Positions 6,073-58,638 of a stretch of DNA of 62,005 nucleotides are shown here, piece by piece. The DNA is from a virus, in IMG/VR virus record IMGVR_UViG_3300037247_002096, positions 1 to 62,005 of that record. The stretch is one strand, 5' to 3'. The position numbers and the translations under genes were made by a program. How positions within the stretch are numbered: the first letter of the stretch is position 1; each line of letters starts with the position of its first letter. Under the pieces are notes generated by a model. It saw only the letters and a list, made by a program, of their open reading frames with translations. It searched no databases and was not told the DNA's origin.

Positions 6073-6447
6073 ATGAGTGCTATCCCGATCACCACAAAAG
6101 GCGGCGATTTACCTTTTCAGTTTGATTTGGATGGGTTGCCGCTCGATGGTTTCATTTGCACCATTACGGTTAAAAAAAGGCCAGAGTTGGAAGATGAAAT
6201 CACCCCCAGGGTGATAGAACCAACCGATGACCTTTGGACTGGGTTTTTGACCACAACAGAAATTGCTTCTTTATCAGTTGGCCGCCATGAACTTATTGCG
6301 TTGATTGAAAATACCAACACTTTGGAAGGACAACAAAGGCCAAAGAGGTTCTTTGTTATAGATTCTTTCTCAACTACTGACCCAATTTCTTGGGACAGTC
6401 TCGTAGGCAATTGGGACAGTCTTGTAGGGAATTGGGACAGTCTTTAA
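6073..6447 (+). CDS. Receptor-binding-type beta module, paralogue A
   Basis: A 124-residue protein whose first 95 residues are close to those of the gene at 7435 (shared [18 protein letters not shown] and WTGFLTTTE segments). This looks like a beta-sandwich module such as those at the N-terminus of phage baseplate or receptor proteins. The C-terminus is unusual: the octapeptide WDSLVGN is tandemly repeated and finally cut short, reflecting tandem DNA repeats at 6393-6447. The paralogue lacks this tail. The pair flanks the fibre gene at 6465. Confidence 0.7.
6393..6447 (+). repeat. Tandem 21-bp repeat at gene end
   Basis: The unit GGGACAGTCT(C/T)GTAGG followed by (C/G)AATT occurs twice and is followed by a third partial copy that runs into the stop codon. 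It encodes the WDSLVGN repeat at the end of the 6073 gene. Replication slippage would change the repeat number without shifting frame. Confidence 0.85.
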
Positions 6448-7434: not shown

Positions 7435-7740
7435 ATGAGCGTTATTCCTACAACTACCAGAGGTGGCGATTTACCTTTTCAATTCGATTTGGATGGATTG
7501 CCTCTAGATGGTTTCATCTGCACAATCACGGTTAAAAAGCGTTCAGAATTGCCGGATGAAATCATCCGTAGGGTCATCACCCCAACAGACGATCTTTGGA
7601 CGGGGTTTTTAACCACAACAGAAGTCGCTGGTTTGTCCATTGGCCGTCATGAACTTATTGCGTTGATAGTCAATTCGAGCACTTTGGAAGGACAGGAAAA
7701 ACCAAAACGCTTTCAGGTCACAGCCAGTTGGAAAACTTGA
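7435..7740 (+). CDS. Receptor-binding-type beta module, paralogue B
   Basis: A 101-residue paralogue of the gene at 6073, without its repeat tail. Start ATG 7435 overlaps the preceding stop region. The two copies flank the fibre gene at 6465, so an A-fibre-B arrangement probably arose by duplication together with fibre exchange. Likely a small tail adaptor; no enzymatic signature. Confidence 0.7.
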   Translation: MSVIPTTTRGGDLPFQFDLDGLPLDGFICTITVKKRSELPDEIIRRVITPTDDLWTGFLTTTEVAGLSIGRHELIALIVNSSTLEGQEKPKRFQVTASWKT

Positions 7741-32937: not shown

Positions 32938-33609
32938 ATGAAGTGGTTCAAACATGATACCGATGCTGAAGATTCGGAGGGATTGAACGTGTTGATTGAC
33001 AATTTTGGGATGGAAGGTTATGGAAGATGGTTTCGGTTACTGGAGACCATCGCCAAAAAAATGGAGCGCGGATCAAACCGTTGTCATGTAGAATATACCG
33101 AGGGCAAATGGTGTGAGATTCTTAAAACAAAACGCAAGAAATTGAGTTGCTTCCTGACAGTAATCCAAAAGCAACTTAAAACAAAAGTAAAACGAAAAGG
33201 CAACAAACTCAGAATCGAATGCCCTAACCTTCTGAAAAAACGAGATGAGTATTCAGAAAGAACCCGATACTCTCCCGATAAAGTAAGCCTTAAGAATAAA
33301 GAAAAAAGAATTAAGAATAAACTTATAAGAAAAGTCTTGCCACCTCCTGGGGTGGACCCTGAACAATCCAAAAAATGGAGCAAGTGTTTAGGTCATATCG
33401 AGGCTCAAATTTTACCAGAAAACTTTACAACTCTTTTTGAGACGATGGCTTTTGCCGGGGTAATGTCTGGCAAGGCCAGTTTGATTTGTAGCGATAAAGA
33501 CCATTCAGATTGCTTATCTGAAAACTACACAGACCTGATCCAAGCGACCATGACGGAAATATTCGACAAGCCGTTGACACCTGAATTTGTGATTGAGGCG
33601 CGATTATGA
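32938..33609 (+). CDS. Replication initiator-like protein
   Basis: A 223-residue protein; ATG 32938 follows GAAAGAAGAAC. Residues 1-30 (MKWFKHDTDAEDSEGLNVLI then EGYGRWFRLLE) are the N-terminal winged domain seen in phage and plasmid replication proteins (Lin1244/DUF4373 type). Residues 155-220 resemble the DnaA N-terminal interaction fold (W-KCLGHIEAQI-PENF-TLFETM). It probably marks and opens the phage origin and recruits host helicase; no phage helicase or polymerase is encoded. Confidence 0.8.
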   Translation: MKWFKHDTDAEDSEGLNVLIDNFGMEGYGRWFRLLETIAKKMERGSNRCHVEYTEGKWCEILKTKRKKLSCFLTVIQKQLKTKVKRKGNKLRIECPNLLKKRDEYSERTRYSPDKVSLKNKEKRIKNKLIRKVLPPPGVDPEQSKKWSKCLGHIEAQILPENFTTLFETMAFAGVMSGKASLICSDKDHSDCLSENYTDLIQATMTEIFDKPLTPEFVIEARL

Positions 33610-33950
33610 AAATCACAGCAACCAATGTTGAAAACGCAATCTGCGATTACATCCGCGCACGAGGTGGGTGGGCCCGCAAAATTCATGTCCTGCCAATACC
33701 CATAAAAAAGAAGTTTGGTAGTCAATGGTTGCTTGTCGGCTGGCGGAAAAATCCTAAAATGGTTGGCTTGGGCGATGTATATGTCATGGAAAAAGGTATC
33801 ACCACTAGGGTCGAGGTCAAACGGCCAGGTGATACTGAATCAGTGGAACAGAAAGCCGACCGGGGAATCTGGGAAAGGGCGGGCGGACCGTCACTCATCG
33901 TTAAAGATATCGACGACTTTATAAAACAATACAAGAGGCTTAGAATGTAA
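33606..33950 (+). CDS. VRR-NUC nuclease
   Basis: A 114-residue protein. GLGDVYVM near residue 58, EVKRPGD near 74-80 and a following Q form the D-(E)xK-Q set of the VRR-NUC branch of PD-(D/E)XK nucleases. Family members resolve or cut branched DNA. It overlaps the initiator end by ATGA, so it belongs to the replication operon; it is also only 390 bp from the Tas-like gene that lacks a nuclease. Confidence 0.88.
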   Translation: MKITATNVENAICDYIRARGGWARKIHVLPIPIKKKFGSQWLLVGWRKNPKMVGLGDVYVMEKGITTRVEVKRPGDTESVEQKADRGIWERAGGPSLIVKDIDDFIKQYKRLRM

Positions 33951-34341: not shown

Positions 34342-35403
34342 ATGGAAATAAACAATTTAAAAATCTTCGTTCGCGGTGCTTACGATCTACAAAAACTTCG
34401 TATCCAAATGGGGAATCGTATCGTTGCCAATTTCAAGGCGCGATTGGGCCAAAAGGCCGGTGAAAGTGAAGAAACCCTGGATGAAAAGGGTAAAGAACTG
34501 CTATCGCAAATTAGGAAAAGTTATAAAAAAATAACCGACAATGTAAAAACCTTCCCCCGACAATCAACATTTACTGGTGATCAGGTTATCAGCACGTTTA
34601 CCGAGCTTTGTTTGGTCGCACAATATGTCAGCCTTGAGACCCAGGAAGACAGCCACTTTAAAAGGCTGGGTTCCATGTTGAACGAGTATCCCATCTTTAC
34701 CGAATATCTCAAAGACGTTAGGGGCATCGGCCCAGCGATGGCTGGTGTGTTGATATCCGAAATCGATATCGAAAAATGCCAGTATCCATCCAGCTTGTGG
34801 AAATATTGCGGGCTTGACGTGGTTGCTGAATGGACATTGGACAGAGTTGTTGCTCTTGTTAATCCTGACAAAATTCCGCACAAGTTCCCTGAGAAAAGAC
34901 CTTTTTATATATTTAAAGACCAGTTTAACTTTTTGCACTTTGAGAAGGAAGGTGAGCCAAATGAATTGCATATTTTTTATAAAGAAAAAACCCTGAAAGC
35001 TAAATTAATTTATGTTTGGACAGGTGACCTTAAAGGACGTTCCAAGAAAAAGGAGCATTTGGTGCAAACTGAGTATATCGATAAAAACAATGAAGTGGCT
35101 TTTAAAATGGGCATCACTTTTAACCCATGGCTAAAATCCAAATTGATTGGTGTGCTGGCATCCTCATTTTTACGGGCGGGGGATAACATCTATAGCCAAG
35201 CCTATCGAGACTATAAAAACAGGATCGAGAATCACCCCGATCACCTTGAAAAGACAAAAGGACATCGCCATAACATGGCAATGCGCTACATGATTAAAAT
35301 ATTTTTAATCGACTTTCATAGAACTTGGCGAGCTATTGAGGAGTTGCCCGTTACCACCGTTTATTCTAAAGGCAAACTCGGAATTGTTCATAAAGCAGGA
35401 TAG
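34342..35403 (+). CDS. Tas-like RNA-guided protein (Nop/IS110-type, no nuclease)
   Basis: A 353-residue protein; ATG 34342 is used as AGGAG lies 9 bases upstream. Residues 120-160 (FTEYLKDVRGIGPAMAGVLI, then SSLWKYCGLDVV) are the helix-hairpin-helix core of IS110/IS116 transposases. Residues 258-335 are a paired-helix segment with RAG, A-R-Y and GHRHNMAMRYMIKIFLI, as in the IS110 C-terminus and Nop-like domains. Residues 165-250 are a beta-rich insert. There is no DEDD or RuvC domain, no HNH and no serine-recombinase-like nucleophile region of IS110. Directly after the TAG stop comes a 36-bp-period dual-spacer array, so it fits the nuclease-less TasA branch of TIGR-Tas systems. It should bind 36-nt guide RNAs. 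Confidence 0.87.
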   Translation: MEINNLKIFVRGAYDLQKLRIQMGNRIVANFKARLGQKAGESEETLDEKGKELLSQIRKSYKKITDNVKTFPRQSTFTGDQVISTFTELCLVAQYVSLETQEDSHFKRLGSMLNEYPIFTEYLKDVRGIGPAMAGVLISEIDIEKCQYPSSLWKYCGLDVVAEWTLDRVVALVNPDKIPHKFPEKRPFYIFKDQFNFLHFEKEGEPNELHIFYKEKTLKAKLIYVWTGDLKGRSKKKEHLVQTEYIDKNNEVAFKMGITFNPWLKSKLIGVLASSFLRAGDNIYSQAYRDYKNRIENHPDHLEKTKGHRHNMAMRYMIKIFLIDFHRTWRAIEELPVTTVYSKGKLGIVHKAG

Positions 35404-36342
35404 TCATGCCATATAAGAAACCCAATAGATAAGAGCGAGTCATAAAACTGAAGAAACCCAATATATGAAAGCGAGTCATTACATTATAGAAAACCATAAA
35501 AAGGAAGCGGGTCATTGAAGCAAAGAAACCCAAATCAATATAGCGAGTCAAAAAAATCCAGAAACCCAATGAAACGAAGCGAGTCATTAAACTTAAGAAA
35601 ACCAGAATGAAGAAGCGAGTCAACTATGGCTAGAAAACCAAAAATCTAAAGCGTGTCAAAAAGTAAAAGAAAACCAAATGAATGAAGCGTGTCAAAAAGA
35701 TTTAGAAAACCATATGAACGAAGCGTGTCAAGTAAAGAGAGAAAACCAATAATTCCAAGCGTGTCAATACTACATAGAAAACCAGTATCAATAAGCGTGT
35801 CATAGGAGAATAGTAATCCACTTTCCTAAAGCGGGCCAATAGTTTTTAGAAAACCAATAAAAGAAAGCGAGTCAAATTGAGGTAGAAACCCATTAGAGAA
35901 AAGCGTGTCATAAAAGCTTAGGAAACCAAAAAACTAAAGCGTGTCACTTCCAACGAGTAAACCTAATGAAGGAAGCGCGTCAATAAGAAAAAGGAAACCA
36001 ATATCGTTTAGCGAGTCAATGTATAGAAGAAAACCATAATGAGGAAGCGTGTCATAGTGAGCAAGAAAACCAAGAGGAAAAAGCGTGTCAATAGGCATGA
36101 GAAACCCACAGAAAATAAGCGAGCCAGTGAAAGCGAGAAAACCAAGCTAAAAGAGCGAGTCACAACCACTAAGAAACCCAACAATATGGAGCGTGTCAAT
36201 GAAGTTTAGAAACCCAATGTCTAGAAGCGAGTCACTACATCAAAGAAAACCATTATAAGGAAGCGAGCCACAGCAATAAAGAAAACCATAATAGTTAAGC
36301 GAGTCAAAAGACAAAAGAAAACCACAGAAGAAAAGCGATTAT
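35398..36342 (+). repeat. TIGR array 1, 26 units
   Basis: Exact 36-bp period with no indel. Loop box AGAAA(A/C)CCA first at 35416 and last at 36316; edge box AGCG(A/T)GTCA; each is separated by a 9-base spacer. The first edge (35398-35406, ending AGTCA) is degenerate and contains the tas stop codon; the last edge (36334-36342, AGCGATTAT) is also degenerate. 52 spacers, nearly all different. Examples before/after the loop box: tgccatata/atagataag, taaaactga/atatatgaa, ttacattat/taaaaagga, aaagacaaa/cagaagaaa. Drifted loops: AGTAATCCA (35812), AGTAAACCT (35956). It is probably transcribed with tas and cut into 36-nt RNAs. Confidence 0.93.
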
Positions 36343-36839: not shown

Positions 36840-36945
36840 GCACTGATTACCATAAATGACCAATTCCATCAAAAGAAAAAGTATGGTATATAATGCAACG
36901 CACTGGAAAGGTCGGTGGCTTCGGTTTTCCGAAAGGGAGGATCCG

Positions 36946-37908
36946 ATGGCCGAATACATGGTCCAGCGAGGCGTCAACAAGATTTGGTATGCTCAGAAAC
37001 GCATCAACGGCTTGAGAATCAGAGATTGCCTGGGCACCACAGACGAACGTTTAGCACGTAAAAAATTCGCTGAATTAGAACTCGCTGTTGAAAAAGGAGA
37101 ATATAACTCGTTTAAAAAAGATTTCATGGTTGTTGTTGAGCAATTTCTTCCCACTGCGACGGTTCGTGAAGAGTTCATCATCCGTTGTCACTTGGTTCCT
37201 TATTTTTCCGCTTTTAAAATCGGAGAAATCAATGAATATGAAGTTTTCAAATACCATGAAGCCAATAAACTCAAACCAGAAAGTACCCTAAAAAAAGAGC
37301 TACGGTGCCTCAAAAAGATTGTCTGCCTAGGAAATCGAAATTTTCAACTCCCAAAACTGAAATTCGAGAATAAAGGCGAAAGATTCAATGAAACTCAGAT
37401 TCTCGAAGAATGTGACGTTTTAAATGTGATCAATCAATACGTATACCCTATATATCGAATTCCATGCTTAGTTTCGGCCTACTCCGCCTTACGCATGGGC
37501 AACGTGGTCCACCTTAAAAAGAAAAACGTCGATCTCAGAGATGGCTGGATCAACGTCCTTCAAACCAAAACCGGGCGACCGGTCAGCATCCCCATCAGCG
37601 GGAAATTGCGTAAAGTTTTCATGCAAATCAAGGTTTGGCCCTTAGGCGATGAGGACTTATTCTTCCCTGGAATATCATCAAAAGCCATGACAAACCAAGT
37701 TCTCCGGGCATTCAGACGTGCTGGCTTCTCCTGGGCCAGTTTTCATCATTTCCGACATTTTGCGGCTTGTTTCATGATCAACGCTGGTGTTCCCATCGAA
37801 GTGGTGCAAAAGATCCTCGGCCACGCTGATATCCGCTCAACACTCGTTTATGCACGTTTAAAAAGGCAAACATTAAAGGAGCACATGAAGGTTTGGGATG
37901 TAAAATAA
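36946..37908 (+). CDS. int: Tyrosine recombinase / integrase
   Basis: A 320-residue protein; ATG 36946 has GGGAGG 5 bases upstream. The catalytic set is complete: R183 (SALRMGN), K208 (LQTKTGR), H267-x-x-R270 (FHHFRHF), H293 (ILGHAD) and Y302 (VYARL). The N-terminal ~95 residues are the arm and core-binding parts. It should integrate and excise the genome. The gene reads rightward, away from the early operon hairpins. Confidence 0.95.
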   Translation: MAEYMVQRGVNKIWYAQKRINGLRIRDCLGTTDERLARKKFAELELAVEKGEYNSFKKDFMVVVEQFLPTATVREEFIIRCHLVPYFSAFKIGEINEYEVFKYHEANKLKPESTLKKELRCLKKIVCLGNRNFQLPKLKFENKGERFNETQILEECDVLNVINQYVYPIYRIPCLVSAYSALRMGNVVHLKKKNVDLRDGWINVLQTKTGRPVSIPISGKLRKVFMQIKVWPLGDEDLFFPGISSKAMTNQVLRAFRRAGFSWASFHHFRHFAACFMINAGVPIEVVQKILGHADIRSTLVYARLKRQTLKEHMKVWDVK

Positions 37909-40999: not shown

Positions 41000-42781
41000 C
41001 TATTCTAAAAAACCCAATCTCTCCATTGTAAAGATAGAAGGGATATACGGCGGCCAATAATCAGGGTTGGCGAAGTTAGTATCCCAACCATAGTTTCTTC
41101 TGGGGGGTGAGTAACATTTTCCACTCAAGCAAAAATCGCCATCAGCTTGTGAACTGATCCATAAGTTGATGAAAGCTCCCCGATAATTCAATGGTTTACT
41201 CCAGCGTTCATGCAAACGGGGATAATTATGCACTCCGCCACCCTTTTTACCATTCAATATTGATGGACTATTGCCGGAGAAAAACGCGGCGTTAACAGAA
41301 GTGCTTATATTGGCACTGGGTGCTGACAGATTGCATTCTTTTGTGGTCCAAGCGTTGGAAAGGATATTGATAGAATCTGAAATGATCGCCACACCCTTCC
41401 TGTTCACAGTATTAAAATCAGCCTCTATATATAACGGGTTGTCAGTCGCTATTGTGGTGTTGGACAACAATTGTGAGTCTGAATAGGTATTTATTTTTTT
41501 CAGACGGATGGCCTGTAAAGGATCTGCATCATTAACAAAAGTGGCGTCTGGAGACCGGGATGTATAAACTAAAATTCCATTTTCGCCCAGTGCGCCAAGT
41601 CCGTTGAAAGCTAAATAATCCTCGAACCAGAGTTCAAGAGCGTATAAATCAATATCAGTGGTGTCAACCCGGCGTTCTTCCCGCCAATCGCAAAAATCAT
41701 CTGGTGAATCTTGAATAATATCATCTGGCCCTGTGTAATACGGTCTTAATAATGGGTTAAAAATTTGATCGGTTACATCAGTACCAGGCGCGGGCCTTGA
41801 AACAAAAACTTTGATGTTTGAGCCTTGGCCGATAATAGTGATACCATCGACTCCGGGGATCAACGGGTTGAGTGCAACACCCTCGTAAAATCCGTTGCGT
41901 TGGAATAAAACCTTTCCGGGAGTTTTATGTGGCTGCTCATTGACTCTGATAAAACCTTTAAAATCATCTTCTAATGCAACTAAGTTGGAGGAATCATAGG
42001 TTTTGTCAAGCTCAATAAAATCCTCCCAAACGGTACTGGTATTCGAGATTTTCATTTCTGCAAATTTTGTTGCTGTGCCACCCGTTTTTTTATTAGTCAA
42101 TAAACTTCCAGTCACCGTTATTGAAAGAGGTGTTTGAATGAGTCCATCGGGGTCAAAATTTTGAAACCTGACATAGGGTTTTGTGCCGCCATTGCCGTAG
42201 GTTGCAACATGAAAATTTCCGTTGGTATGAATCCTGCCCCAACTGGTCCAATTTTTTCCGGGCATTAATTCCAGATCAGGGTCACCACCGGGATCGCCAT
42301 CGCCGCCATAAAATATAAACCATTGCACCAATGGGGTTTCCAATATGCGTATTTGTTCTGTCAAAGTTTCTTTAGAATTATCTGTGGTGGATCTGGAAGT
42401 GGCAATTATTTCATATTCGTGAGCATAATTATTGATGATGTTCTTACCATTTATGGTTTGGGTGAGATAACGGTCTTGGATTTTTGTGATGCTGTATTCA
42501 ACCTGGTGGTCGCGATATTCAGGCAGAGCAATGGCACCTCCTATAGGCTGATAAGGCACCAGATTCTCGAAACTTGTCACTATGGTAGCCACGGCTTGAT
42601 CCAACCCGGATTCTGCAGTGTAAAACGACTTCTTACCCTTTAAAAGCGCACGAGCAGATTCAAGGTTTAGCGAGGTCATTTGCAACGCGCCTACGGATAA
42701 AGCAAGCATTGCCGCCATCATGAACATAAATATAATGAGTGTGGAGCCTTTTTCCTGTTTCAACAGAGAGTGATAACACAT
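41000..42781 (-). CDS. PilX-like pilus assembly protein
   Basis: A 593-residue protein read leftward with GGAG 7 bases before ATG. Residues 9-60 are a class III prepilin-like start (KQEKG, then STLIIFMFMMAAMLALSVGA, then E/S-rich AESGLDQA), as in PilX N-terminal domains of minor pilin operons. The rest is a large beta-rich extracellular part. It is opposite to its neighbours, which fits independent capture from a host genome. Together with the pilin at 58216 it suggests the prophage alters type IV pili. Confidence 0.78.
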   Translation of the reverse strand: MCYHSLLKQEKGSTLIIFMFMMAAMLALSVGALQMTSLNLESARALLKGKKSFYTAESGLDQAVATIVTSFENLVPYQPIGGAIALPEYRDHQVEYSITKIQDRYLTQTINGKNIINNYAHEYEIIATSRSTTDNSKETLTEQIRILETPLVQWFIFYGGDGDPGGDPDLELMPGKNWTSWGRIHTNGNFHVATYGNGGTKPYVRFQNFDPDGLIQTPLSITVTGSLLTNKKTGGTATKFAEMKISNTSTVWEDFIELDKTYDSSNLVALEDDFKGFIRVNEQPHKTPGKVLFQRNGFYEGVALNPLIPGVDGITIIGQGSNIKVFVSRPAPGTDVTDQIFNPLLRPYYTGPDDIIQDSPDDFCDWREERRVDTTDIDLYALELWFEDYLAFNGLGALGENGILVYTSRSPDATFVNDADPLQAIRLKKINTYSDSQLLSNTTIATDNPLYIEADFNTVNRKGVAIISDSINILSNAWTTKECNLSAPSANISTSVNAAFFSGNSPSILNGKKGGGVHNYPRLHERWSKPLNYRGAFINLWISSQADGDFCLSGKCYSPPRRNYGWDTNFANPDYWPPYIPSIFTMERLGFLE

Positions 42782-43231: not shown

Positions 43232-45325
43232 ATGAAAGATGATTTTTTAAAAAAAAATATGACAAAAATGATGTTTTCGGTAGTAGCAATATTGGCTTTT
43301 AGCATTATTGGACTGATCATTTACATTTCAACCACCAGCTTTAACAACACGGTGGCATCCAGCAAACTCAACGCCCTGTCTATCATCGATCAATTCAAAA
43401 CTTTACGTGCCTATTACGTTAAAAGCGTTATCAAAAAGGTCAAAGCCAATGACACCGGCTTGCAAATATCTATCGACCACAAAAACATGGACGATGCTAT
43501 CCCCCTACCTGCAACCATGATTCATGATATGAGCGAATTATTGAGCGGAAAAGGTAAAGACAATATAAAATTGAAACTTTACAGTGATTTCCCGTTTCCA
43601 AATCGTAAAGGTAGAAAATTGGATAGTTTTGGAAAGTCAGCTTTAGCGTTCTTTCAAGCCACTCCGGATCAACCTTTTGTAAAAGAAGAAACATTGAATG
43701 GCCAGTCCGTTGTTCGCGTTGCCGTTGCCGATAAAATGATCGCCAAGGCTTGTGTGAATTGCCACAATACCCGCTACGACACCCCAAAAAATGATTGGAA
43801 ACTGGGCGATGTGCGTGGTGTGCTCGAAGTCATTTCCCCCATCGATACTCAATTAGCAGCAAACAGCGCGATGTTAACCAAAGTAATTAGTATCACCGTT
43901 TTCTGTTTGATCCTGGTGGCTTTGATGGTCGCAGGCGTCTTGATGCAAATGAAGGCAATGAGAAGATCACAAACTGAAAACGCAAAAATAATCTCGATAA
44001 TTGAAAACGCTCCTATCAATATCCTTTTTGCGGATACAGACTTTGATTTGCAATATATGAATAAAGCTTCATTTAAAACTTTAAAGACTTTGGAAAAGAG
44101 TCTTCCTGACAGGGTGGAAAACCTTGTTGGGCAATCGATTGATATTTTCCACAAAAATCCGGCTGTGCAACGAAGAATTCTTTCCGACCCAAAAAATCTC
44201 CCACATCAAGCTAATATCCAACTGGGTCCAGATACTCTGGATCTTTTGTCAAACGCGATTTACGATAATGATAAAAACCATATGGGGTCTATGGTCACAT
44301 GGGCGGTGATCACTGATAAACTTGCGCGGGAACAAAAAACAAAGGAGATGCAAGAACGTGAACAAATGCAGTCTAAAGAGTTGCAAGAAAACGTGGATAG
44401 CATTCTTGATGTTGTGAGTGCCGCCGCCATGGGGGATCTCACCCAAGAGATCACCGTGCAGGGTGATGATGCCATTGGGCAAATGGGCAAAGGGCTGACA
44501 CAATTTTTCTTGGATCTGCGTAAAAATATTTCAGAGATTGCGGATACAGCCCAGACCCTCAGCAGTTCATCAGAGGAATTGAGCACAATCAGTCAAACCA
44601 TGGCGGGCAATGCGGAACAAACTTCCGCTCAGGCAAATGTCGTGTCAACCGCGTCCGAGGAAATCGCTCGCAATGTTGAAACAGTAGCAACAGGTGCGGA
44701 AGAAATGGGCGCAAGCATTAAAGAAATTGCCCGCAATGCCAATGAAGCGGCAAAGGTGGCCAAATCCGCTGTGGTCATCGCCGAAAAGACCAACGAAACA
44801 GTGGGCAAACTGGGTGTCAGTAGTACAGAAATAGGGCAAGTCATAAAAGTCATCACCTCGATTGCAGAGCAAACCAACTTGCTGGCTTTGAACGCAACCA
44901 TCGAGGCGGCTCGTGCTGGAGAAGCCGGAAAGGGCTTTGCAGTTGTCGCCAACGAAGTCAAAGAACTGGCGAACCAAACAGCCAAGGCAACTGAGGAAAT
45001 CAGCCAAAAAATCGAGGCCATTCAATCGGATACTCAAAGCTCCGTTGATGCCATTGCCGAGATCACCATGGTCATTAACCAGATCAACGATATTTCTAAC
45101 ACCATCGCCAGCGCGGTTGAGGAACAGACCGCAACCACGGCGGAAATTGGGCGCAACGTGGAACAAACCGCCAAAGGGAGTAATGAAATATCAGAAAATA
45201 TTTCCGGAGTGGCTAAGGCGGCTCAGGAAACCTCTACAGGTGTCGGGCAAACTCAGCAAGCGGCAACAGACCTGTCAAAAATGGCCGCTGATCTGCAAAA
45301 ACTTGTCAGCCGATTCACTTATTGA
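43232..45325 (+). CDS. Methyl-accepting chemotaxis receptor with heme-type sensor
   Basis: A full-length 697-residue receptor. TM1 at 13-34, a periplasmic DUF3365/Tll0287-type domain with CVNCH at 174-178 (c-type heme motif), TM2 at 217-240, a PAS-like region (255-370), then the long cytoplasmic helices with the conserved tip [20 protein letters not shown] near 548-567. The end lacks a CheR pentapeptide. It would sense redox or a gas and signal through host CheA. A complete receptor in a phage is rare; it probably steers motility of lysogens. ATG follows ACCGGGGAG. Confidence 0.93.
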
Positions 45326-46324: not shown

Positions 46325-47281
46325 ATGCCTAGTTATAATATTGGGAGTTTATTTGCAGGGATAGGTGGTATTGACCGTGGTTTTCAGGATGCGGGTTTTA
46401 AAATAAAATGGTCCAATGAAATTGACAAAAAAGCTTGTAAAACCTTTTCAGTCAATTTCAGTCACAAAATGTATTCCGGCGATATAAAAAATTTAATTGT
46501 AGCGAATTTGTCAAAAGTTGATGTTTTGACAGCTGGTTTTCCTTGTCAACCTTTTTCCATAGCTGGTTATAGAAAAGGGTTGATGGATGAGCGGGGAGGA
46601 GCTATTTTTTTTCAAATGATGCGGATAATAAAAGGATTAAAACCGAGAGTTATTTTCCTTGAAAATGTTAAAAATTTAACTACTCATGATAAGGGAAGAA
46701 CGTTAAAGATTATAATGGAAGCTCTTATAGAGGCGGGATATCAATCCCCGAAGTATGCGATTTTAAACACTTGCGAATATTCTCAGTTGCCACAAAATCG
46801 GGAACGGCTTTTTATTGTTGGTTTTAAATATAAAAAAGATCAAGTCCGCTTTAATTTTCCAGAAAAAGAAAAGAAACAAAAAACCATTAAACAATTATTG
46901 GAAACAAAAATTCCAGAAAAATTTTATTATGATCAATTAGGATCAAAAATTTTTCCTACGTTGCAGAAAGCCATTACAAGAGTGGATACATGTTATCAAT
47001 GGCGAAGGAAATATGTCCGGGAAAATAAAAGCAATATGTGCCCAACTCTAACAGCTAATATGGGGACCGGTGGCCATAATGTTCCTTTGATATTGGATAA
47101 GGGCCGAATAAGAAAACTGACCCCAAAAGAATGTGCCAAGTTTCAAGGCTTTCCAAAAGATTTTATTCTTCCAGAAAATATGACAAATTCGGACCTTTAT
47201 AAACAGATTGGCAATAGTGTCAGCGTCCCAGTTGTAACTCGAATCGCACATAATATTCTGGAGGCCATTAGTAATTCATGA
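46325..47281 (+). CDS. DNA cytosine-5 methyltransferase
   Basis: A 318-residue enzyme with motif I LFAGIGGIDRGF (residues 9-20), motif IV GFPCQPFS (catalytic C74), ENVKN (motif VI), QNRERLFIVGF (motif VIII) and a C-terminal QIGNSV (motif X). It methylates C5 of cytosine at an unknown site. It overlaps the next gene by ATGA, the layout of a type II restriction-modification pair. Confidence 0.95.
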   Translation: MPSYNIGSLFAGIGGIDRGFQDAGFKIKWSNEIDKKACKTFSVNFSHKMYSGDIKNLIVANLSKVDVLTAGFPCQPFSIAGYRKGLMDERGGAIFFQMMRIIKGLKPRVIFLENVKNLTTHDKGRTLKIIMEALIEAGYQSPKYAILNTCEYSQLPQNRERLFIVGFKYKKDQVRFNFPEKEKKQKTIKQLLETKIPEKFYYDQLGSKIFPTLQKAITRVDTCYQWRRKYVRENKSNMCPTLTANMGTGGHNVPLILDKGRIRKLTPKECAKFQGFPKDFILPENMTNSDLYKQIGNSVSVPVVTRIAHNILEAISNS

Positions 47282-50170: not shown

Positions 50171-51055
50171 ATGGAGAAAAATAAAATACCTAAAGCCACG
50201 CATTCAGGAATTCTTGAAATCGGGGAAATAAAAATTCAATGTTATGTTTTAGAAGATCGAACAAGGGTAATTTCCCAGGGCGGAATGGGAAAGGCACTTG
50301 GAAAAAGTCGAGGACGCGATTTAGCCGTTTTCTTAACAAGAAAGGGACTCAAACCCTTTATTTCTAAACAACTCCTCGACGACATCAAAAAACCCAGACT
50401 TTTCATTCCGCCGCATGGCGGAAAGCCTGGATATGCATATAAAGCAACGGTTCTAGCTGATATTTGTGAAGCTGTTTTAAAATGTAGAGCAGAAGGAAAA
50501 CTTAAAGCCCAACTTAAACATATTGCGACACAATGTGAAATTCTTGTGCGAGCTTTTATGAAAGTTGGAATTATCGCATTGGTGGATGATGCGACTGAAT
50601 TTTCCAAGCTGAAATCTGAATATAGACAATTATTTAAAGAGTTTATAAGAGATGAAGCGGGAAAATGGGAGAAGCAATTCCCAGATGATATTTATGATAT
50701 TTTCTATAAAATTTATGAGCTTCCTAGGTCCGAGAATAAAAATAAGCACCCTTTATTTTTTGCTAATTTGACACGTAAATATATTTATGAGCCATTGGCT
50801 GGAAGCAATGGTGGGCTTTTAAAAATGCTTGATGAAAAAAATCCAATATTAATTTCAAATTCTGGGAAAAAAAAGAGAAAATTTAAATTTCACCAATTTC
50901 TTGAAAAAATAGGAATAAATACCCTCCAGCAACATATGTGGCAATTAATTGGTATTGGGAAGGCATCTTCAAATAAAAATTCATTTAATAGAAATTTTAA
51001 TAGGACATTTTCTAAAAATTATCAATTCCATTTATTTGATGAAGATGAAGAATAA
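50171..51055 (+). CDS. P63C-domain protein 1
   Basis: A 294-residue protein. The C-terminal half (ALVDDATEF, FIRDEAGKWEKQFPDDIYDIFYKIYEL) matches the P63C domain found in phage antirepressor-like proteins. The N-terminal half (CYVLEDRTRVISQGGMGKALG) is the companion DNA-related domain. A paralogue is at 51842, with a HigA-like regulator and shared repeats between them. Probable antirepressor or regulator. Confidence 0.85.
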   Translation: MEKNKIPKATHSGILEIGEIKIQCYVLEDRTRVISQGGMGKALGKSRGRDLAVFLTRKGLKPFISKQLLDDIKKPRLFIPPHGGKPGYAYKATVLADICEAVLKCRAEGKLKAQLKHIATQCEILVRAFMKVGIIALVDDATEFSKLKSEYRQLFKEFIRDEAGKWEKQFPDDIYDIFYKIYELPRSENKNKHPLFFANLTRKYIYEPLAGSNGGLLKMLDEKNPILISNSGKKKRKFKFHQFLEKIGINTLQQHMWQLIGIGKASSNKNSFNRNFNRTFSKNYQFHLFDEDEE

Positions 51056-51841: not shown

Positions 51842-52720
51842 ATGTCACCAGAAAAAGAAGAAGAAAAAATTAAAAACCAATCTGATTTACCATTTGCCAA
51901 ATGGCGCGGGATAATAGATTTAGGCGGCAATGAGCTTGATTGTTATGTTTTGGACACTGGTCAAAGAGTAATTTCTATTCGTGCCACAATTAAAGCCATC
52001 GCAGATATTGACTCTGGAAACCTGGGCAGTTATATAGAGGCAAATGCACTTAAACCCTTTATAAATAACGATAAAATCCTGGGCGAACTTTTGGAGTTTT
52101 CGATCCCTGGAACACAATTAAAGGGTCTTGGTCTTACGACAGAACATTTTGAATTAATATGCCGTGGTTATGTGCAGGCTCTTTATACAAAAGCAGTTTT
52201 AACTGATAGGCAAACAGAAATCGCTATCAAATGCGCTGTATTGTCTGCTGGTTTGACAAGAACCGGTCTTGATGCCCTGGTCGATGAAGCCACAGGTTAT
52301 CAATTTGAGCGTTCTACTGATGCTCTGCAAATTAAACTTAAAGCTTTTATTGCAGAGGAATTGCGTGCATGGGAAAAAACATTCCCTGATCAACTTTGGG
52401 AAGAATTTGGTCGTCTAACAAACTGGCAAGGAGCTCTGAGAAGTAGACCAAAATGGTGGGGTAAATTAGTTATAGAATTGATTTATGACACACTTGATCC
52501 TGACGTTGCAGAATATCTGAAGAACAACAAGCCAGAACCGGGCATTCATTGGCATAGGAGGTTAACCGAAAATTTAGGCGTCAGTCAGTTAGTCTCTCGG
52601 TGCTATGAGGTGATTGGTATGGCCAAAGTCTGTAAAGATATAAAACAACTCAGACAGATGGTCGCACAACATTATGGTAAAAAACCTTTGCAATTCACAA
52701 TGTATTTCTATGAAAAATAA
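51842..52720 (+). CDS. P63C-domain protein 2
   Basis: A 292-residue paralogue of the 50171 protein. ALVDEATGYQFERSTDAL and FIAEELRAWEKTFPDQLWEEF are the core P63C signature, closer to the consensus than copy 1. The N-terminal part has CYVLDTGQRVISIRATIKA. Start ATG 51842 lies after AAAGGGGGATGGATA. Probable antirepressor-like regulator. Confidence 0.88.
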   Translation: MSPEKEEEKIKNQSDLPFAKWRGIIDLGGNELDCYVLDTGQRVISIRATIKAIADIDSGNLGSYIEANALKPFINNDKILGELLEFSIPGTQLKGLGLTTEHFELICRGYVQALYTKAVLTDRQTEIAIKCAVLSAGLTRTGLDALVDEATGYQFERSTDALQIKLKAFIAEELRAWEKTFPDQLWEEFGRLTNWQGALRSRPKWWGKLVIELIYDTLDPDVAEYLKNNKPEPGIHWHRRLTENLGVSQLVSRCYEVIGMAKVCKDIKQLRQMVAQHYGKKPLQFTMYFYEK

Positions 52721-53579: not shown

Positions 53580-54937
53580 ATCGTGTCATTTTAATCTAGA
53601 AACCCAAAAAGGAAAAGCGAGTCATTCACGCAAAGAAAACCACAATCACAAAGCGAGTCAAAGTACCGAGAAACCCAAAAAAATATAGCGAGTCAAACGT
53701 CCGCAGAAAACCAGACCCAAAGAGCGAGTCAAATCATTTTAGAAAACCAATGGATTCAAGCGAGTCATGTTATGACAGAAAACCAATAAGCCAAAGCGTG
53801 TCATTATCTGGAAGAAACCCAAAGCATGTAAGCGTGTCAGTACTGATAAGAAAACCAGTGATAATAAGCGTGTCAAGTTGACTTAGAAACCCAATATAAT
53901 AAAGCGAGTCAATAAGTTCTAGAAAACCACATAAAGTAAGCGTGTCAAACGTCCGCAGAAAACCAGACCCAAATAGCGAGTCATGTTATGACAGAAAACC
54001 AATAAGCCAAAGCGTGTCAAAATCACAAAGAAACCCAATGCCATATAGCGAGTCATGATATATGAGAAACCCATAGTGATAAAGCGCGTCATAAGAATTG
54101 AGAAACCCAGAGCCAAAGAGCGAGTCAATATTTCCAAGAAACCCAATATAATAAAGCGAGTCAAATCTATTGAGGAAACCAATAAATCTAAGCGTGTCAA
54201 TACCAACTAGAAAACCAAAATCACAAAGCGAGTCATTACATTATAGAAACCCAGAAAAACGAAGCGTGTCATAATTATCAAGAAACCCAAAAAGCTGGAG
54301 CGAGTCAAATTTGACTAGAAACCCATAATAAGTAAGCGTGTCAAAATCACAAAGAAACCCAATGCCATATAGCGAGTCATACCATTACAGAAACCCAATG
54401 AAGCAGAGCGCGTCATTTCATCGAAGAAACCCATAGTGGTAAAGCGAGTCAATATTACGAAGAAACCCAAAGAGGAAAAGCGAGTCAAATTTGACTAGAA
54501 ACCCATAATAAGTAAGCGTGTCAACTCAACCAAGAAACCCAGATTAATAAAGCGAGTCATTCAACAGTAGAAAACCACAGAAGAAAAGCGTGTCATTTTA
54601 ATTGAGAAATCCAGAAAAAAGAAGCGAGTCAGTATAGCGAAGAAACCCATAGTGGTAAAGCGAGTCAATATTACGAAGAAACCCAAAATAGGGAAGCGAG
54701 TCATACCAGCCTAGGAAACCAAAGTATGTAAGCGAGTCATGTTGAGAAAGAAAACCACATAAAGTAAGCGTGTCAAACGTCCGAAGTAAACCAATGGAAA
54801 AGAGCGAGTCATTTCATCGAAGAAACCCATAGTGGTAAAGCGAGTCATTTGAAACTAGAAACCCAGGGTAAAGTAGCGCGTCATTAAAATAAAGAAAACC
54901 AAGAGAAAAAAGCGATTCAAATAATCTTAGAAAACCA
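53580..54937 (+). repeat. TIGR array 2, 37 full units plus remnant
   Basis: 38 loop boxes AGAAA(A/C)CCA from 53598 to 54929 alternate with AGCG(A/T)GTCA edges at 36-bp spacing; only one unit (loop at 53669) is 35 bp. First edge ATCGTGTCA (53580) and the terminal edge AGCGATTCA (54911) are degenerate. Repeated units keep spacer-loop-spacer together: aacgtccgc/gacccaaa(g,t), tgttatgac/ataagccaa, aaatcacaa/atgccatat, aatttgact/taataagta and tttcatcga/tagtggtaa each occur twice. ttacattat and cagaagaaa are also in array 1. No tas gene is next to it, so it probably uses the one at 34342. Confidence 0.93.
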
Positions 54938-55032
54938 TATAAAGGAGACTGCCATGACCTAGATATATAAACCTCCCTGATAAATTCTCCCACACTCAGC
55001 CCTTCAATTAATTTTAATACCGGAGAATTAAA
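54938..55032. other. Gap after TIGR array 2
   Basis: TATAAAGGAGACTGCCATGA after the last loop box resembles a ribosome site and start, but the frame (ATG ACC TAG) ends at once. No terminator is clear. Confidence 0.4.
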
Positions 55033-55645: not shown

Positions 55646-55657
55646 ACTTTTTCACAA

Positions 55658-55727
55658 GCCTATGTAGCAGATTGGAATGCAACTGGTTCTAAACCAGGTT
55701 ATGCGGGTTCGATCCCCGCCATAGGCT
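55658..55727 (+). tRNA. tRNA with anticodon CUA (amber suppressor)
   Basis: Perfect 7-bp acceptor GCCTATG/CATAGGC, D-stem GCA/TGC, anticodon stem CTGG/CCAG with loop TTCTAAA (U33, anticodon CTA, A37), T-stem GCGGG/CCCGC with TTCGATC. Discriminator T, no encoded CCA, then T6 terminator. The anticodon reads UAG. The D-arm is minimal and 27-43 is an A-G mismatch. The charging amino acid cannot be fixed from the sequence. Confidence 0.92.
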
Positions 55728-55770
55728 TTTTTGGAGTACAATATCTGTACTATAAAGAAAGGACACATCC

Positions 55771-58215: not shown

Positions 58216-58638
58216 ATGCTGACCAAATTAAACGCCCATAAGAATCAAAAGGGTTTCACCCTGATCGAGTTGTTGATCGTCATCGCTATCATTGGTATTT
58301 TGGCCGCAGTTGCCATTCCTCAGTTTGCCCAGTATCGCGCTCGTGCAAATGCTGCACAAATCACTTCAGATTTGCATAATGTATATTTGTCTTGTAAAGC
58401 TTTCTGGGGAACAGGACAGAATAATTCAACAAGCTTATGCACCATTGATGATGCTGGTATCTTGGGTCCACTGTATGGCTTTGTAGCAACCAATTTAATA
58501 ACTTTAGAAATTACTACAGGGACTGAACGTGGCTTTATAGCCACCGGTACTCATCCAAATGTTTTAGATGATACTGATACTGAAGTTTTATTCACAGTAA
58601 GCGAAAATGGTAACGTTACTAATCCGGGCGGTTTCTAA
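58216..58638 (+). CDS. pilA: Type IV pilin (PilA-like)
   Basis: A 140-residue major-pilin-type protein. Prepilin leader of 12 residues ends KG before FTLIELLIVIAIIGILAAVA, with E at +5, then the standard pilin helix. A cysteine pair (residues ~59 and 76) may form the D-loop. AAAGGAGACAATTC ribosome site and a sigma-54 promoter upstream; a hairpin downstream. It is a self-contained host-type transcription unit between late phage genes. It could be built into host pili, changing adhesion or phage receptor properties. Confidence 0.93.
   Translation: MLTKLNAHKNQKGFTLIELLIVIAIIGILAAVAIPQFAQYRARANAAQITSDLHNVYLSCKAFWGTGQNNSTSLCTIDDAGILGPLYGFVATNLITLEITTGTERGFIATGTHPNVLDDTDTEVLFTVSENGNVTNPGGF

Follow-up and report, generated by a model that had tools for sequence, protein, structure and literature searches.

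A phage TIGR-TasA system with a nuclease-less Tas protein and two dual-spacer guide arrays

What use might a phage make of a Nop-domain protein that carries no nuclease and is followed directly by a long array of short paired spacers? The question is raised by the 62,005 nucleotides of IMG/VR virus record IMGVR_UViG_3300037247_002096 (the window), where a tas gene adjoins one such array and a second array lies well beyond it. TIGR-Tas systems were first described in 2025 (Faure et al. 2025, PMC12045711), and the function of nuclease-less TasA proteins and the origin and expansion of the arrays are open problems named by their discoverers (PMC12045711). The system in the window is a TasA member of this known kind, with variant features in its remote second array, an insertion in its Tas protein and repeat boxes of the form AG...CA. 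It is probably a phage TIGR-TasA system in which one nuclease-less Tas and two guide arrays provide guided DNA binding without cutting.

Membership of the Tas protein in the TIGR-Tas family is supported by a curated model, by sequence profile and by fold, and the initial annotation, made from the letters of the DNA, was right to propose it and to see the published dual-repeat design in the array. The open reading frame called there starts with ATG, ends with TAG (35401-35403) and encodes 353 residues. It scores 121.9 bits against the NCBIfam equivalog NF052498 (the curated TIGR_Tas model), above the cut-off of 100. A search of the PDB with the single sequence finds TasR (9mty) at E 1.8e-10, and a profile of 44 family members finds TasR 9mty at E 8.5e-30 and TasH at E 6.7e-19, over the Nop part. 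Structure prediction, which had been suggested as a check, gave an AlphaFold2 model with a mean predicted local distance difference test score of 79.6; among solved structures, only TasR and TasH chains match it at E <= 0.001.

Assignment to the TasA subtype is supported by the lack of a RuvC or HNH domain and by homologues that are nearly all solo-Nop proteins, most of 284-290 residues. Scans with Pfam and NCBIfam found no nuclease family (RuvC, HNH) in the protein, and the IS110 model NF033542 fails, at 18.2 bits against a cut-off of 140 and over residues 6-161 only, so the earlier statement that DEDD, RuvC and HNH domains are absent holds. The Nop helices start at residue 3 of the model, with no nuclease domain ahead of them, and the C-terminal helices that had been claimed are present at 262-278, 283-297 and 306-332. 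For the IS110-type helix-hairpin-helix claimed there, Pfam Transposase_20 scores 19.3 bits over residues 121-163, a weak match under the 21.3 cut-off, but 32 of the 44 homologues do match this family. An alignment places an insertion of about 66 residues at 161-229 in the Tas proteins of the window and of a sibling phage, and this insertion is missing from the other close relatives. Genes of the tas type are easily mislabelled, since the closest viral model (52% identity) bears the annotation IS110-family transposase, and PHROG 4285 labels its member proteins 'transposase'. With the Tas protein as query, tblastn found nothing in annotated phage records and only a partial IS110 match in plasmids, and a PADLOC scan gave no match.

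The arrays have a regular anatomy. Each 36-bp unit consists of two conserved 9-mers, the edge AGCGWGTCA and the loop AGAAAMCCA, and two 9-nucleotide spacers (A and B). The 26 units that the initial annotation had counted directly after the gene are accounted for by 25 complete edge repeats, spaced at exactly 36 bp from 35434 to 36298, with a truncated edge at each end: array 1 opens with the 5'-truncated edge AGTCA (35402-35406), the AG of which is shared with the TAG stop of tas, and closes with the 3'-truncated edge AGCGA (36334-36338). Array 2, which had been missed, lies about 17 kb beyond array 1, contains repeated units and half-units, and has a degenerate first edge (ATCGTGTCA). The consensus over the two arrays (64 units) is AGCG[A/T]GTCA for the edge and AGAAA[A/C]CCA for the loop. 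Most repeat columns are nearly invariant (edge position 8 and loop position 7 are each C in 64/64) and the spacer columns are variable, as the earlier description of two conserved and two variable 9-mers had it. A conserved first unit that had seemed to be present in one subclade (AGGTGCATA/CCTAAGTA) is actually where the coding sequence of tas ends, and it was set aside.

The box motif AG...CA is found in both edge and loop here, and TG...CCA is found in both repeats of a set of distant relatives (L083-L086). In one subclade the edge has AA...CA but the loop AG...CA, so that the match between boxes is imperfect. Among 893 unit types, spacer position 9, which immediately precedes a box, favours A and disfavours C in spacer A (0.43 against 0.10) as it does in spacer B (0.52 against 0.06), and this symmetric bias may reflect protein contact.

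Table 1. Coordinates of the Tas protein gene, the two arrays and neighbouring genes in the window
Feature	Position	Strand	Description
tas gene	34342..35403	+	353-residue Nop-domain Tas protein, TasA type; ~66 extra residues at 161-229
TIGR array 1	35402..36338	+	26 tigRNA units of 36 nucleotides; truncated edge repeats at both ends
TIGR array 2	53580..54946	+	38 tigRNA units, one of 35 nucleotides; same repeats; no adjoining tas
Small endonuclease-like gene (phrog_93)	33606..33950	+	phrog_93 at E 6e-9; two genes upstream of tas
Tyrosine integrase	36856..37908	+	PF00589 at E 7.3e-21; downstream of array 1

The register of the guide RNA (tigRNA) can be read from the edge repeats themselves. For TasR, base pairing inside the edge repeat has been described between the two tigRNA ends (PMC12045711). 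A guide extending from the middle of one edge to the middle of the next would require bases 6 and 7 of the first edge to be complementary to bases 3 and 2 of the second. This pattern was looked for lag by lag in 999 edges from 70 arrays, against within-array permutations (500 each). Pairing of bases 3 and 6 with the next edge (lag +1) was found in 921 of 929 cases (z 9.5) and that of bases 2 and 7 in 912 of 929 (z 7.2), levels reached by none of the 500 permutations, and there was no significant excess of pairing within the same edge or at lags of -1, 2 or 3. When 61 distinct tigRNAs are aligned in the mid-edge register, 98.4% of cells are paired (equalled by 0/500 shuffles), and 27 double changes, from GC to AU or from CG to UA, are seen among them. 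In the window, both edge pairs are standard in 61/61 complete units scored, over both arrays. An independent set of 128 arrays, gathered by DNA pattern, again gives pair 3-6 (z 6.2). The combinations at bases 2 and 7 indicate that the + strand is the RNA strand, since G-T is common (352 edges) and A-C rare (34), and G-U pairs whereas A-C does not.

This edge covariation is taken as evidence for selection on individual guide units, and it fits 36-nucleotide guide RNAs that run from mid-edge to mid-edge. Covariation of this edge pair has already been reported for TasR arrays (PMC12045711); the lag-by-lag test in TasA arrays is new to the present analysis. No covariation was seen between spacer A and spacer B, and 50 unit pairs gave no clear sign of the uneven mutation along spacers that a seed would leave.

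The covariation also bears on the idea that the array is a minisatellite, or encodes a 12-residue repeat protein in antisense, and has nothing to do with RNA guides. A length of 36 bp is divisible by three, and antisense open reading frames recur mechanically over the arrays. However, both window arrays have at least seven stops in each of the six frames, and thus no open frame; off-length half-units occur in 40 of the 70 arrays, with only eight fully open combinations of array and frame; and the compensatory pairs connect neighbouring edges. The stops and the covariation refute this idea, to which we give practically no credence.

How the system might then work can be sketched from its relatives. 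Both arrays would be transcribed on the + strand and cut within each edge repeat to yield 36-nucleotide tigRNAs, each with two 9-nucleotide spacers and with its ends closed as an edge helix of two base pairs. Homology to TasR and TasH suggests that one tigRNA would be held by a dimer of Tas, and that the two spacers would pair with opposite strands of an 18-bp target. The target geometry, pull-downs of tigRNA and the absence of DNA cleavage when no nuclease domain is present have been published (PMC12045711). The nuclease-less Tas would unwind and bend the target DNA without cutting it, and the bound protein would most likely block transcription or replication of non-self DNA, in the first place that of competing mobile elements and otherwise that of host genes. 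Guided binding of this blocking kind, directed at DNA outside the phage, is suggested by the homology, the absence of a nuclease, the absence of self-targets and the fast turnover of spacers. Whether competing mobile elements are the target class is a judgement that could fall either way.

Some points weigh against this proposal of guided binding. Pair 2-7 is not significant in the independent 128 arrays (z 1.4), a set in which it varies little because selection required G at edge base 2. On the + strand, a simple consensus scan found nothing resembling a terminator shortly after either array, in contrast to what has been published. We infer the use of array 2 by this Tas from its identical repeats. 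Finally, the search with paired spacers that the initial annotation had recommended found no natural target that stood out convincingly above the permuted-pair null, whether in the phage itself, among relatives that carry TIGR systems or among related phages. For this search, spacer pairs from the window and all relatives were placed in two to four half-site layouts, with gaps of 0-2 and up to 2-4 mismatches, and compared with phage DNA amounting to at most 1.9 Mb. We favoured the geometry A + rc(B) (spacer A with the reverse complement of spacer B), on our own reading of the cut positions that have been published. In IMG/VR, two scans for exact patterns returned two hits and three hits, the latter from one virus, which is about chance, and the viruses hit have no notable similarity to the window phage. 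It is very improbable that the system regulates the phage's own genes through self-targets: there is one window match with a single mismatch, in the other geometry, but matches to the phage do not exceed those of permuted pairs in four layouts, and the spacers of the sibling change though the genes stay.

The sibling phage (G001) is 82% identical to the window phage in Tas, 93% in terminase and 87% in integrase. It has kept both arrays, array 2 at L007 8158-8688, between homologues of the same flanking genes. The two phages have no complete unit in common, and almost all of the spacers are changed; one complete unit of G001 is present in both of its own arrays. G001 also has a gene for tRNA-Arg immediately upstream of its array 2 (L007 8693-8767, - strand), and none was found at the corresponding site in the window.

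Such a near-complete change of spacers is less expected if the guides regulate host genes, for instance in lysogeny, with TasA as an RNA-guided repressor of chromosomal sites, since host promoters would be fixed. The lack of a nuclease in TasA and the presence in the phage of an integrase and pilin-type genes that could alter the host speak for this alternative, which we regard as unlikely but worth bearing in mind. The genes concerned are a type IV pilin-like gene at 58216-58638 (+) and one for a large protein with a pilus-type leader at 41000-42781 (-), each of which has a homologue in the sibling; judging by these genes, the phage may alter host pili by lysogenic conversion.

Array pairs that have diverged less show how units may be replaced. 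Their shared units are collinear in 200 of 215 cases, in some cases differing by 1-3 bases, and the blocks of unshared units are scattered along the arrays without significant polarity (P 0.11, with some pairs redundant). Within arrays, whole units are repeated 16 times against about 0 expected from a column-shuffle null, and by the same null spacer A alone is reused 24 times against 3.1 and spacer B alone 42 times against 8.3. Array 2 of the window supplies much of this reuse; without it, 11 whole-unit, 21 A-only and 25 B-only cases are left. We infer that reuse arises through recombination between the short repeats or through template switching at them. More broadly, and with rather more doubt than belief, we suggest that the arrays may evolve by non-polar, cassette-like turnover and half-unit reuse, with the remote second array serving Tas in trans, so that the repertoire would be a recombining combinatorial library and not a record of captures.

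The family to which these arrays belong is sizeable. Scans of IMG/VR gave 5 and then 72 viral loci that encode Tas relatives, nearly all with an adjoining array of two alternating 9-mers at 36-nucleotide steps. Relatives were also found on two contigs of metagenome-assembled genomes, labelled Hydrogenedentota and Flavobacteriales; the latter may be phage DNA, since its array nearly equals that of a viral contig. A search for the DNA pattern of the array alone found at least 118 stretches of viral DNA; in 15 records, the reversed pattern had no match. A Tas relative is encoded on 37 of the 45 array-pattern contigs searched, and the array mostly adjoins tas, with a few placed roughly 4-11 kb off (G047, G007). 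Profile A2 found no Tas match in eight viral contigs that match the array pattern (L196, L198, L199, L203, L214, L216, L244 and L250, from records G017, G018, G019, G022, G029, G030, G045 and G048), which may be fragments, encode a more divergent Tas or have orphan arrays.

The genes around tas bear on whether the protein acts with a partner. TasA might direct a separate nuclease to the target, for example the small endonuclease encoded two genes upstream. That phrog_93 gene (33606-33950) is kept in the sibling, at 80% identity, and small nuclease-like genes lie near tas in about nine relatives. However, most relatives have no such neighbour inside 5.5 kb, and small nucleases are ordinary in phage replication modules; we think this arrangement improbable. 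In about 15 relatives, a family A DNA polymerase is encoded close to tas and its array; a PD-(D/E)XK nuclease, a SNF2-type helicase or a single-stranded DNA-binding protein is the neighbour in a smaller number. Alternatively, TIGR-TasA may bend DNA where its guides direct it and so assist the integrase of the phage, an idea suggested in PMC12045711. The integrase follows tas and array 1 in both the window phage and the sibling, but the relatives show no recurrent integrase cluster near tas, whereas replication genes do recur, and dozens of changing guides are unfit for a fixed attachment site. A role of this kind is most unlikely.

Other features of the window may be mentioned. The description of the phage as temperate and P22-like would fit its integrase, portal and head families. 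A tRNA gene with anticodon CTA, which would read UAG, lies at 55657-55728 (+), and at L007 7383-7454 (-) in the sibling; recoding of TAG through this tRNA is unsupported, TAG being the stop in 9 of 63 mechanical open reading frames, tas included. A chemotaxis-type receptor (Tll0287 + MCPsignal, 43232-45325, +) and a C5 cytosine methyltransferase (46325-47281, +) may be cargo, as neither was found in the sibling pieces examined. Two paralogous P63C-domain proteins (phrog_2384; 50171-51055 and 51842-52720, both +) are encoded upstream of array 2. A single stretch of the sibling is matched by two near-duplicate small genes of the structural region (6073-6447 and 7435-7740, each on the + strand).

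The closest published likeness is the TIGR-TasA locus of Flavonifractor plautii (PMC12045711), where a solo Nop protein adjoins an edge/loop array of ~9-nucleotide repeats with 9-nucleotide spacers, a 36-nucleotide unit and truncated terminal edge repeats. The window system differs from published TIGR-TasA in its second array some 17 kb from tas, the insertion of about 66 residues, its AG...CA boxes and in that the consensus scan showed no clear terminator behind its arrays, and at 26 and 38 units the arrays are long, most published arrays having 5 to 15 (PMC12045711). With TasR (9mty) and TasH (21kl, 9w04) it shares a homologous Nop domain, by profile and fold, and with TasR the edge-helix pairs seen in the TasR structure (PMC12045711); unlike them, it has no RuvC or HNH domain, and TasR repeats are described as UG...CCA in place of AG...CA. 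The likeness to IS110/IS1111 elements with their bridge RNA is confined to a distantly related RNA-binding domain (the weak Transposase_20 match), as there is no DEDD domain here and a guide array replaces the single bridge RNA. As in CRISPR-Cas, a repeat-spacer guide array adjoins an effector gene. In contrast to the single repeats of 25-36 nucleotides in CRISPR-Cas, which alternate with spacers of about that size, each unit here has two 9-nucleotide repeats and two 9-nucleotide spacers, and the turnover of units shows no preference for one end. No CRISPR adaptation genes were noticed, the other genes of the window not having been scanned for cas families.

The lag covariation test and the turnover pattern go beyond the text of PMC12045711, and no later open paper was found on either. 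The edge covariation offers RNA-free evidence, in uncultured phages, for a mature guide that would run from mid-edge to mid-edge. The sibling pair, with its conserved tas and array sites and replaced spacers, together with some 70 loci, makes the origin of the arrays a question for data, and the signatures of turnover so far are the non-polar turnover of whole units, the reuse of half-units and the drift of bases inside spacers.
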